Notes under the pieces: generated by a model
The model's input: the letters and a program-made list of their open reading frames with translations, nothing else
Told to the model about the DNA's origin: nothing
Databases searched by the model: none
Program-made: the position numbers and the translations under genes
Origin: Nitrospira sp. CG24C
GTDB lineage: Bacteria > Nitrospirota > Nitrospiria > Nitrospirales > Nitrospiraceae
Direction: 5' to 3'
Assembly: GCA_002869885.2 (NCBI GenBank)
Contig: NEWR02000018.1
Coordinates: forward strand, 62,063-126,062
Length of the DNA: 64,000 bases
Shown here: positions 10,475-59,965 of the stretch, piece by piece
How positions within the stretch are numbered: position 1 is the first letter of the stretch
Layout: every line of letters begins with the position of its first letter

Positions 10475-10503
10475 CGGTAGCGGGCGGAACAGGAGATGGT
10501 TGA

Positions 10504-10570
10504 TTTGGTCTATCTGGTCTGTCTGGTTCAACCAAACAAACGAGACAGACCAAACAAACCAAATGAACGA
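10504..10570. repeat. 9-bp-period palindrome between convergent genes
   Basis: The left half repeats GGTCTATCT and GGTCTGTCT. The right half is its imperfect reverse complement (GAGACAGACCAAACAAACC), so the transcript can fold from either strand. It lies between the converging response regulator and murU genes and could act as a bidirectional terminator, although no long U-tract follows. Relatives are at 41108-41196 and 59838-59939, with partial copies near 19200 and 60180. Confidence 0.7.
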
Positions 10571-21960: not shown

Positions 21961-22065
21961 CGTGAAACGTGAAACGCAAAAGAATTGGACTGCCTTTTTC
22001 CATCCAGCGCTTCATATCTTATGTTTCACGTTTCACGTTTCACTTCTCACGCTTTACGCTTTACG
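21961..22065. repeat. Opposed 7-bp-period arrays upstream of the GalT-like gene
   Basis: 21961-21981 is made of CGTGAAA-type heptamers. 22022-22065 is six CGTTTCA/CGCTTTA-type heptamers in the inverted sense, so the two arrays can pair. The array ends in the GGAGGGG ribosome-binding site of the next gene. Confidence 0.85.
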
Positions 22066-36784: not shown

Positions 36785-37945
36785 ATGTTTGAAAAGCGAC
36801 TCAATGAATCGGCTGCGCGGCATCTGACCAGACGCATTAATCCGCTCCATTCCGGTGTCGGTCCGATGGTTGAGATGGCAGGACGCCAAATTCTCTTACT
36901 CGCTTCAAACGACTATTTGGGCCTGGCCATGCACCCAGAGGTGATTCAGGCTTCCGTCGAAGCGACACAACGGTTTGGCGCCGGGGCCGGAGCCGCTCGT
37001 TTGATTTCAGGCTCGTTGCCGCCGCATCAAGACCTAGAGTCTGCTCTGGCACAGTTCAAAGGAACCGAGGCCGCGCTGACTTTTAGTTCCGGCTACCTTG
37101 CCAATATTGGAACCATCCCTGCACTGATCGAACAAGGCGGATTGATCCTGGCCGATCGCTTGTGCCATGCCAGCCTAATCGACGGTTGTCGCCTCAGCGC
37201 AGCCGACTTTCGAGTTTATCGCCACAACGACACCGGCCACCTCCAGTCCCTTCTGGCCAAGAGGCGCCGGGCGCGACGCACCCTGATTGTGACCGACGGC
37301 CTATTCAGTATGGACGGAGACCTCGCACCGTTGCCCGAACTCAGTCGATTAGCCCAGGCCTATGAGGCCGACCTCTATATCGATGACGCCCACGGCACGG
37401 GCGTGATGGGACCGCATGGGCGAGGAACGGCCGAACACTTCGGCCTCGATACACAGATCCCGTTTCAGATGGGAACATTAGGCAAAGCCTTCGGCAGCAG
37501 TGGCGCCTACCTCGCTGGATCATCGGCATTGATCCGTTATCTCATAAACACCAGCCGCTCCTTTATCTTTACCACGGCACCCCCACCGAGTTCGGTTGCT
37601 GCCGCCATGACGGCGTTACGAGTCATACAACGAGAGCCGGAGCGACGCGCGCGCCTGTGGGCTAACCGTGAACGGTTATTTTCAGGATTGACCCAATTGG
37701 GATTCAGCCTGTCCCCTAGCGTCAGTCCAATCATGCCGATCCTCGTCGGCAATGCCGAAACCGCGCTCGTGTTTGCCAAACACCTGTTCGCAGAAGGCGT
37801 GTATGCGCCGGCGATTCGCCCGCCTACCGTTCCGGACTCCACCAGCCGCATCCGCGTCACGGTGTCGTCCGAGCACACCACCAGCCACATCGATTACGCC
37901 CTTACCGCATTTCAACGCGCAGGACAATCGACAGGACTGATCTGA
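36785..37945 (+). CDS. bioF: 8-amino-7-oxononanoate synthase
   Basis: This is a PLP-dependent alpha-oxoamine synthase, 386 residues. SNDYLGLAMHPEV is the N-terminal family motif, FSSGYLANIG and HASLIDGCRLS contact the cofactor, YIDDAHGTGVMGPHGRG carries Asp and His, and the Schiff-base lysine is in MGTLGKAFGSSGAYLAG. It condenses pimeloyl-thioester with alanine in biotin synthesis. Relatives making 2-amino-3-ketobutyrate are excluded only by overall resemblance. ATG 36785 is preferred over an upstream TTG (36764). No other bio gene is nearby, so the pathway is scattered. Confidence 0.92.
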   Translation: MFEKRLNESAARHLTRRINPLHSGVGPMVEMAGRQILLLASNDYLGLAMHPEVIQASVEATQRFGAGAGAARLISGSLPPHQDLESALAQFKGTEAALTFSSGYLANIGTIPALIEQGGLILADRLCHASLIDGCRLSAADFRVYRHNDTGHLQSLLAKRRRARRTLIVTDGLFSMDGDLAPLPELSRLAQAYEADLYIDDAHGTGVMGPHGRGTAEHFGLDTQIPFQMGTLGKAFGSSGAYLAGSSALIRYLINTSRSFIFTTAPPPSSVAAAMTALRVIQREPERRARLWANRERLFSGLTQLGFSLSPSVSPIMPILVGNAETALVFAKHLFAEGVYAPAIRPPTVPDSTSRIRVTVSSEHTTSHIDYALTAFQRAGQSTGLI

Positions 37946-37997
37946 TCGAATCTCTCTCCCTACCTACTGAGCCATCGAAGAATGCTCGCAGCCGCTT

Positions 37998-38176
37998 AGC
38001 CCGCATTATTCATGAAGGTTCGTCGCGAAAGCATGCAGACGCGAAGCGAGACGGGCACTCGGAGACGTGAAGCCTGAGGCGTACTCGTGCAGTACGTCGA
38101 AGGGCTGAACGGCGAGACTGCCCGTCGCAGCCGCGTATCCGCGCTTGCAGCAGATGCTTCATGAATCATGCGGGTT
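37998..38176. repeat. 179-bp imperfect palindromic element (MITE-like)
   Basis: The terminal arms, 37998-38017 (AGCCCGCATTATTCATGAAG) and 38157-38176 (its reverse complement with two mismatches), enclose internal pairs: GACGGGCA with TGCCCGTC, and GTACTcgtgcAGTAC at the centre. No open frame of note is inside. It separates bioF from pilT. It could be a non-autonomous mobile element or a folded RNA; no second copy is in this window. Confidence 0.75.
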
Positions 38177-38286
38177 AGGGCTATTCCCTTGCTTTCCCAT
38201 CACCCTGTGGCATGATTCACTCAAGTCGCCCGGATGTCCGACAGGCCATCATCTTACTATTCTTATCTTATCGAGGAGTCCTCTTC

Positions 38287-39345
38287 ATGGATATTTCGAA
38301 GCTCCTGACCTTCACGGCAAAGGAGGGCGCATCGGATTGTCACATCAGCGCCGGCGAGCCACCGATGATCCGCATGAACGGGGACCTCAAGAGACTCGAT
38401 CATCCCCCACTGACCACGGAAGAAACGCACTCGCTGATCTATGACATGATGAGCGATACCCAACGGAAGAATTTCGAAGAAAAACGCGAGTGTGACTTTT
38501 CTTTTGAACTCGGCGACATCGCCAGATTCCGCGTCAATGTCTTCGTCCAAGCCCGTGGGCTTGGCGCCGTTTTTCGCAACATTCCCACCACGATCATTCC
38601 GATGGAAAAACTCGGCATGCCACCGATCGTGCGGCAGCTCTGCGATCGGGAAAAGGGACTAATCCTTGTGACCGGCCCAACCGGGTCCGGTAAATCGACA
38701 ACGCTGGCCTCCATGGTCGATTATTTGAACAACACGTTCGAAGGCCACATCCTCACCATCGAAGATCCGGTCGAGTTTGTCCACAAGTCGAAAAAATGTC
38801 TGGTTAACCAGCGGGAGCTGGGCGTCCATACCCTGTCATTCGCGAATGCGCTGAGAGCCGCTCTTCGCGAAGATCCAGACATCATCCTCGTGGGAGAAAT
38901 GCGCGACCTGGAAACCATCCAGCTCGCGTTGACTGCTGCAGAAACAGGCCACTTGGTCTTCGGCACACTCCACACTTCCAGCGCGCCGAAGACCATCGAC
39001 CGCATCATCGACGCCTTTCCTCCAAACCAACAGTCCCAAATTCGGACACAGATCGCAGAAGCTTTGGAAGCGGTCATCACTCAGACCCTGCTGAAGAAAA
39101 AAGTAGGCGGTCGTGTCGCCGCGCTCGAAATCATGGTCGCCACGACCGCGGTCCGTAACCTCATCCGAGAGGGCAAATTGCACCAGATTCCCGGGATCAT
39201 GCAGGCCAGTCAGAAAGACGGCATGCAAACGATGGACATGGCGCTGTACGAGCTAGCGACCCGTGGCGTCGTCACGAAAAGCGAAGCTCAATCGCGTAGC
39301 ATGAACCCAAATCTGTTCGGAGCCGCTTCGAGCGGCGCAGCGTAA
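38287..39345 (+). CDS. pilT: Type IV pilus retraction ATPase PilT
   Basis: This hexameric ATPase of 352 residues powers pilus retraction and twitching. The start ATG 38287 follows GAGGAG; the frame is open farther upstream but gives no domain. Motifs are Walker A VTGPTGSGKSTT, the Asp box and Walker B DPDIILVGEMRD, the His box HLVFGTLHT, and the PilT-specific C-terminal VRNLIREGK (canonical AIRNLIRE). The N-terminal PAS-like region begins MDISKLLTFTAKEGASDCHI. It is followed after 28 bp by the pilU-like gene. No pilin or assembly gene is in the window. Confidence 0.93.
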   Translation: MDISKLLTFTAKEGASDCHISAGEPPMIRMNGDLKRLDHPPLTTEETHSLIYDMMSDTQRKNFEEKRECDFSFELGDIARFRVNVFVQARGLGAVFRNIPTTIIPMEKLGMPPIVRQLCDREKGLILVTGPTGSGKSTTLASMVDYLNNTFEGHILTIEDPVEFVHKSKKCLVNQRELGVHTLSFANALRAALREDPDIILVGEMRDLETIQLALTAAETGHLVFGTLHTSSAPKTIDRIIDAFPPNQQSQIRTQIAEALEAVITQTLLKKKVGGRVAALEIMVATTAVRNLIREGKLHQIPGIMQASQKDGMQTMDMALYELATRGVVTKSEAQSRSMNPNLFGAASSGAA

Positions 39346-59796: not shown

Positions 59797-59965
59797 TGGA
59801 TGGGCCTGATAATCTTCTGTGCTCGCGCAACGCGCCCGGGTTCGTCTGTCTGGTTGGCTGGTCTTTCTGGTCTGTCTGGTTCTTCTGGATGAATTTCAGG
59901 TCCGACCAACCAGATAGACGAGATAGACCAGATGGACCAGCCTTCGTTGGACGGCCGCAGTGGGA
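59797..59965. repeat. A-type core interrupted by the 9-bp-period palindrome
   Basis: The left A arm and left core (GCCTGATAATCTTCTGTGCT, then CGCGCAACGCGCC) end at 59837. A complete 9-bp-period palindrome follows (59838-59939; TCTGGTCTGTCTGGTTC on the left, ACCAGATAGACGAGATAGAC on the right). The right core CCTTCGTTGGACGGCCGCAG resumes at 59941. The closing A arm is absent. Confidence 0.8.

Follow-up and report, generated by a model that had tools for sequence, protein, structure and literature searches.

A multi-copy non-coding repeat with IS1380-type ends and a conserved, folding interior upstream of pilT in Nitrospira

The DNA analysed here, referred to as the window, is a 64,000-nt stretch of Nitrospira sp. 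CG24C (assembly GCA_002869885.2, contig NEWR02000018.1, positions 62,063-126,062 of the forward strand), in which an imperfect palindrome lies between two ORFs that we take, from their translations, to be bioF and pilT. The bioF-like ORF stops at 37945, 54 bp ahead of the element, and the pilT-like ORF starts at 38287, about 110 bp after the element ends; the ORF translations agree with the placement given in a first-pass annotation of this sequence. The 20-bp arms of the palindrome (37998-38017 and 38157-38176) differ by 2 mismatches, with a chance expectation of 0 in the window, and the element strand folds with a minimum free energy of -91.6 kcal/mol compared with -65.3 +/- 4.6 kcal/mol for shuffled sequences (z -5.8), a value that 0 of 200 shuffles equalled. 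The palindrome reported in the first-pass annotation is therefore real, and the shuffle folds together with the zero expectation of the arms rule out a chance palindrome. Its extent, given there as 37998-38176, had to be trimmed: read base by base, the outermost AG and TT are part of a TTAG direct repeat that brackets an element proper of 175 bp (CCCGC...GCGGG), the 18-bp ends of which differ by 1 mismatch and which has no coding capacity (Table 1). The element is present in a single copy within the window and is the sole window match at E < 1 of model R2, which describes the interior only; its core has no second match there.

Table 1 Coordinates of the element, its internal features and its borders in the window
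Feature	Position	Strand	Basis
Left TTAG target duplication, 4 bp	37996-37999	.	Sequence; YTAR flank statistics
Whole mobile element (MITE)	38000-38174	+ (core-sense strand = +)	Model R1 match G000:C10:100062-100236 +
Left terminal inverted repeat CCCGCATTATTCATGAAG	38000-38017	+	End also on IS1380-family elements
Subterminal internal loop, left strand, conserved, CGTNRCGARR type	38018-38032	+	
Central core hairpin AGGCGTAC...GTACGTCGA	38077-38100	+	Sole window match, 0 expected
Subterminal internal loop, right strand, conserved, YYGYAGYNG type	38143-38156	+	
Right terminal inverted repeat	38157-38174	-	
Right TTAG target duplication	38175-38178	.	Sequence
pilT-upstream conserved block GGCTATT.CCTTGCTTTCCCATCACCCTGTGGCATGAT, outside the element; in congeners with and without the element	38179-38230	+	

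Other inverted repeats occur elsewhere in the window. Those at 10499-10568 and 59842-59921 consist of TGGTCTGTCTGGTT-like units, which are also found inside some elements of the present family (L115, L131) as nested insertions. Another, at 21962-22043, is of the GTGAAACGTGAAACG type, and similar GTTTCACG runs are present within an element in L149.

Searching the genome for the arms, as the first-pass annotation had proposed, revealed a multi-copy sequence, with 44 BLAST matches of the element in its own genome and 97 sites for the 18-base end at up to 3 mismatches against 2 for a reversed control. Model R1, which was trained on 22 elements with IS1380-type ends only, gave 37 matches in the same genome, where the copy number is about 40; relatives hold many more. 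By length, four classes of copies can be told apart: 175-176, 188-190, 209 and about 260 bp. The exact 18-base pattern was found in at least 116 stretches of a species-genome collection and, among the matches listed, record titles name Nitrospirota, Gammaproteobacteria, Deltaproteobacteria, Planctomycetota, Acidobacteria, Krumholzibacteriia, Saprospiraceae, Myxococcota, Armatimonadetes and others. Model R1 matched 51 of 61 relatives and 13 of 14 further genomes reached through the loci. Matches per genome numbered 55 in a Lysobacteraceae bin, 39 in Krumholzibacteriia, 84 in an unclassified bin, 46 in Acidobacteria, 41 in Myxococcota and 46 in Saprospiraceae; these figures exceed the number of elements, since some elements score on both strands. 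As the copies are related, none of the counts given here are independent. In the other genomes matched by R1 most elements measure 174-179 bp, a length of 158 bp being found in a Planctomycetota bin. The source genomes are mostly metagenome bins in which single contigs may be misbinned, but misbinning hardly accounts for genomes that hold tens of copies. Plasmid and phage collections gave element matches at chance level, except for one end on an Acidiphilium plasmid, a match that led to the IS1380 family. Among viral contigs one carried two exact ends and none carried the core patterns; this contig (L147:805-1040, from the IMG/VR viral collection) has CTAG at each flank and could be a vector between hosts.

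Analysis of the flanks revealed an insertion signature. The target duplication that the first-pass annotation had suggested looking for is TTAG/TTAG at the window copy, and the 4-bp flanks are identical in 42 of 100 end pairs (CTAG 26, TTAA 7, TTAG 4, CTAA 4 and CCAG 1). Among pairs with YTAR at both flanks (n = 58), 42 were identical, compared with 22.6 +/- 2.9 after shuffling of the right flanks, and 0 of 10,000 shuffles gave a count as high. TTAG and CTAA are the informative flanks, because the palindromic CTAG and TTAA could merely extend the inverted repeat; for these non-palindromic tetramers we counted 8 direct repeats versus 1 inverted.

Empty sites, also named in the first-pass annotation, were found in the strict sense for one copy and not for the one in the window. 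The site of copy L003, which lies in the same genome between CTAG and CTAG, was covered in 25 of the 29 loci analysed, and 19 of these 25 congener loci are empty with one CTAG. The rest comprise four loci with a 41-bp relic of two joined ends, one with CTTT and one longer by 8 nt. The relics, in which the interior is deleted, belong to four congeners (L213, L214, L215 and L217). In G013 both flanks of the L003 site were matched 226 bp apart, as with an insertion. The pilT protein was matched in 58 of 61 relatives, and 30 loci were compared at the pilT site, our own included, with G028, G033, G035 and G045 not judgeable. The element is missing from this site in 20 same-genus and 2 same-family loci, whereas G026 has a complete element, G007 a right end with Ns inside and G027 one end plus GTTAG. 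None of the 22 unoccupied sites carries a bare TTAG, and the same-genus ones read TTCC, TTGC or TTAC. A single-copy sequence with no empty sites and no stable fold, the outcome on which the first-pass annotation would have abandoned its proposal, is thus not what was found.

The ends of the element are IS1380-type, like those of insertion sequences of this family in congeners and in further phyla where the element occurs. In 9 of 12 loci inspected, such ends adjoin transposases matching PF13701 (IS1380), where the chance of a 16-mer match at up to 3 mismatches is 0.026 per locus. Beside PF13701 transposases we found CTAG followed by CCCGCATTATTCATGA in G014, CTAA followed by CCCGCATTATTCATGA in G069, TTAA followed by CCCGCATTATTCATGA in G064, CTAG followed by CCCGGATTATTCACGA in G065 and G068, ends of the CCCGCATTATTCATGA type with diverged flanks in G024 and G007, and further cases. 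The IS1380 element of G014, a congener, has a full length of about 1707 bp and YTAR at both flanks (CTAG, CTAA). PF13701 was detected in 12 of 61 relatives (6 above the cut-off), and a second set of 20 genomes yielded it in 10 (7 above the cut-off); genome by genome its presence does not coincide with that of the element, as is expected if transposases come and go. The genome of the window, which is 94% complete, gave no match to PF13701, PF13546 or PF01609. An IS701/IS5-type source, considered on account of the YTAR target, was rejected because PF13546 and PF01609 have no match in the genome. A transposase lying within the elements, or directly inward of their ends, was sought among ORFs up to 2.6 kb from the end sites at 146 loci; by size and position, the two criteria applied, these ORFs formed no large cluster at a constant location. 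Taken together, the number of copies, the YTAR tetramers duplicated in direct orientation, the empty sites and the IS1380-type ends bear out the earlier suggestion of a MITE-like element, which is best read as an IS1380-mobilised MITE. An IS1380-family transposase would move it in trans into YTAR sites, duplicating the tetramer, and because the genome of the window has no detectable IS1380 transposase, the copies there may be immobile.

The interior of the element is also found between other kinds of end. Model R2, whose training includes one sequence with GAGCCTGTCCGACATTG ends, matches elements with two further kinds of end. Elements ending in GAGCCTGTCCGACATTG have mostly CTAG-like flanks (15 paired cases); the link to them is not circular, because R1, which was trained on IS1380-type ends only, finds the GAGCCTGTCCGACATTG-ended element used in R2 at E 1.4e-11 and two others at 1.1e-5 and 6.5e-5. 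The third kind is about 121 bp long, begins with GGCTGCTC/GGATGCTC and has a CAAAAAG stretch (alignment A4). For this kind the link is less strong, with E about 1e-7 to 1e-4, and comes mostly from the core CGGAGGCGTAC...GTACGTTGAGG together with tandem G-A loops. An insertion sequence owning the GAGCCTGTCCGACATTG ends or those of the about-121-bp kind was looked for and none was found.

Members of the GAGCCTGTCCGACATTG-ended family, which is MITE-like, about 181 bp long and has the interior hairpin in common, were seen at L273, L274, L275, L276, L277, L278 and L280 and at L044, L134 and L256; L273-L278 and L280 are from the genome of the window, in loci of 343-344 bp. At L149:1048-1240 an element of this family adjoins the G014 IS1380 element with one CTAG between them. 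The about-121-bp hairpin family is represented by L287-L292 (genome of the window), L298-L304 (G012) and L310 (G031). Its centre CGGAGGCGTACC...GGTACGTTGAGGA is strongly conserved, and the variation in its terminal arms is compensatory.

Comparison of the interiors revealed that pairing rather than arm sequence is kept. The core AGGCRTAC...GTAYGTYGA is present in 69 of 101 paired elements, in 61 of which its match begins 77-79 bp in from the left end; the subterminal internal loop (CGTNRCGARR left, YYGYAGYNG right) is a second conserved place. Median identity over the left-arm stretch 31-72 is 0.31 in 91 pairs of cross-phylum elements. Constant among elements of Nitrospirota, Gammaproteobacteria, Myxococcota, Acidobacteriota, Krumholzibacteriia, Bacteroidota and other groups are the length of 174-179 bp, the core, the internal loops and the pairing. 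In alignment A1, 45 of 74 pairs have changes on both sides, with 185 double-change cells compared with 70.0 +/- 6.3 in shuffled alignments and at most 85 with partners slid. In alignment A3, which holds the interiors of 22 sequences with the end repeats removed, this is true of 42 of 44 pairs, with 234 double-change cells (86.3 +/- 7.4 shuffled, at most 97 slid) and a covariation score of 0.591 (0.212 +/- 0.014 shuffled, at most 0.165 slid); the tested structures come from folds of the same sequences, which biases their share of paired cells over that of the slid versions. RNAalifold gave double changes in 30 of 33 pairs. Covariation exceeds chance, as for functional structured RNA. Rfam searches gave no match up to E 1 for the window element, none up to E 0.1 for 15 loci, and for 16 further loci three matches, all below the gathering score, with a best E of 0.0064. 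The interior is an old module of which pairing, loops, core and length have been kept across phyla.

Folding also distinguishes the two strands. In 67 of 69 elements the better fold is that of the core-sense strand and not of its complement (mean -14.2 kcal/mol), and the 15 cross-phylum representatives, drawn from 10 genomes, all show this too. Removal of the core leaves the preference in place for 15 of 15 representatives (mean -16.8) and 61 of 69 elements, compared with 84 of 200 random quasi-palindromes. This asymmetry speaks for selection on one folded strand. G-U outnumbers A-C 45:19 in A3, 57:37 in A1, 55:32 in the Nitrospira 176 class, 38:37 in the 188 class and 230:193 in a cruder pairwise count, an excess too modest and uneven for us to accept it as proof of RNA. 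Among 52 intergenic copies there was no orientation bias to neighbouring genes (19 co-directional, 20 opposed and 13 between divergent or convergent genes), and 8 of 60 copies overlap an ORF call, both counts being based on crude gene calls. Since no orientation is preferred, host read-through does not explain an RNA role, and a scan found no sigma-70-like promoter inside the element. As to the long hairpin RNA suggested earlier, the covariation and the preference of folding for one strand speak for a single strand with a function; RNA and single-stranded DNA fit the folding data alike.

We consider it probable that the element is an IS1380-mobilised, multi-copy non-coding MITE and that its conserved interior works as a folded single strand, with RNA the likeliest form. 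The core-sense strand would act folded and single-stranded, and would help the element to persist or spread, possibly with a candidate protein bound at its conserved internal loops. That it acts as single-stranded DNA, for example as a hairpin extruded at replication and recognised by a transposase or another DNA-binding protein, seems to us rather doubtful: strand-specific folding fits this as well as it fits RNA, and the missing promoter match and the indifference to host transcription agree with it, but a double-strand DDE transposase is what the direct YTAR duplications and the IS1380-type ends indicate. Such transposases mainly need the ends of an element. Conserved G-U pairs, such as column pair 67-86 of A3 (G-U in 17 of 22), are moreover usual in RNA. 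Distinctly unlikely is an ordinary IS1380-derived MITE with a functionless interior, in which copying between the arms (quasipalindrome correction) mimics compensatory change. Arms can indeed be lost or collapsed, as in the four joined-end relics and the single end at the G027 pilT site, and the left side of the G027 relic bears the variant of the right end, which copying from arm to arm would produce. Arm copying should, however, erase mismatched loops, whereas the same asymmetric loops and core recur across the aligned phyla, the core keeps its distance from the left end, and one strand folds better in every cross-phylum representative.

An effect on pilT, through a promoter supplied or blocked by the element as the first-pass annotation had proposed, is highly improbable. 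It is the position between the bioF stop and the pilT start that would suggest it, but the element has no promoter or terminator match in a scan and is absent from the 20 congeners and 2 family members noted above, and in same-genus loci the conserved upstream block lies 104-115 bp from the pilT start, about equally with or without an insertion.

The usual view of MITEs is one of decayed insertion sequences whose interiors are dispensable. Here this is reversed: conservation lies in the interior, and it is the ends that can be exchanged. We tentatively suggest, as a possibility we would put somewhat below an even chance, that such elements represent an undescribed class of mobile structured RNA or folded strand, in which one covarying hairpin is found in several phyla with at least three kinds of end, probably served by different transposases, the arms turning over almost completely while loops, core and geometry do not change. 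Should the folded strand be functional, the elements, of which many uncultured lineages hold tens of copies, would be cargo or parasites endowed with their own molecular activity. The analysis also yields a strong covariance model with which a repeat frequent in Nitrospira and other genomes can be annotated.

In the open-access literature searched, including by end and core sequence words, and judged by titles, abstracts and selected passages, we found no published description of the element, and no paper there contains the 15-base end sequence. Its closest relation by the ends is the IS1380 family (PF13701; for example ISAcr4 and the copies of Acidiphilium pACMV1), which has CCNGNATTATNCAYGA-type terminal repeats and YTAR-like flanks; unlike the element, its members have a transposase and two ends that differ from each other, and no match extends past the terminal repeat when judged by eye. 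IS1380 is described as the prokaryotic outgroup of piggyBac, which makes 4-bp TTAA target duplications (PMC10813416); the likeness, by description only, lies in the 4-bp duplication, the target here being YTAR, mostly CTAG. Correia/nemis, QMITE2 and other bacterial MITEs resemble the element as non-coding, intergenic sequences of 100-250 bp with terminal repeats; their transcripts are predicted to form long hairpins, and some are processed by RNase III or are a source of small RNAs (PMC10969869). They are known from single genera or species, and the passages on them mention no cross-phylum covarying interior (PMC10969869). The Chunjie MITE of Geobacter uraniireducens, compared by description only, is likewise multi-copy, variable and mostly intergenic, at 178-235 bp (PMC10969869). 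MITEPye1 of Paracoccus yeei differs in that its ends are attributed to the IS1182 family and in its 1-3 copies, but is, like the element proposed here, described as a MITE with a stem-loop at the RNA level (PMC11578231).
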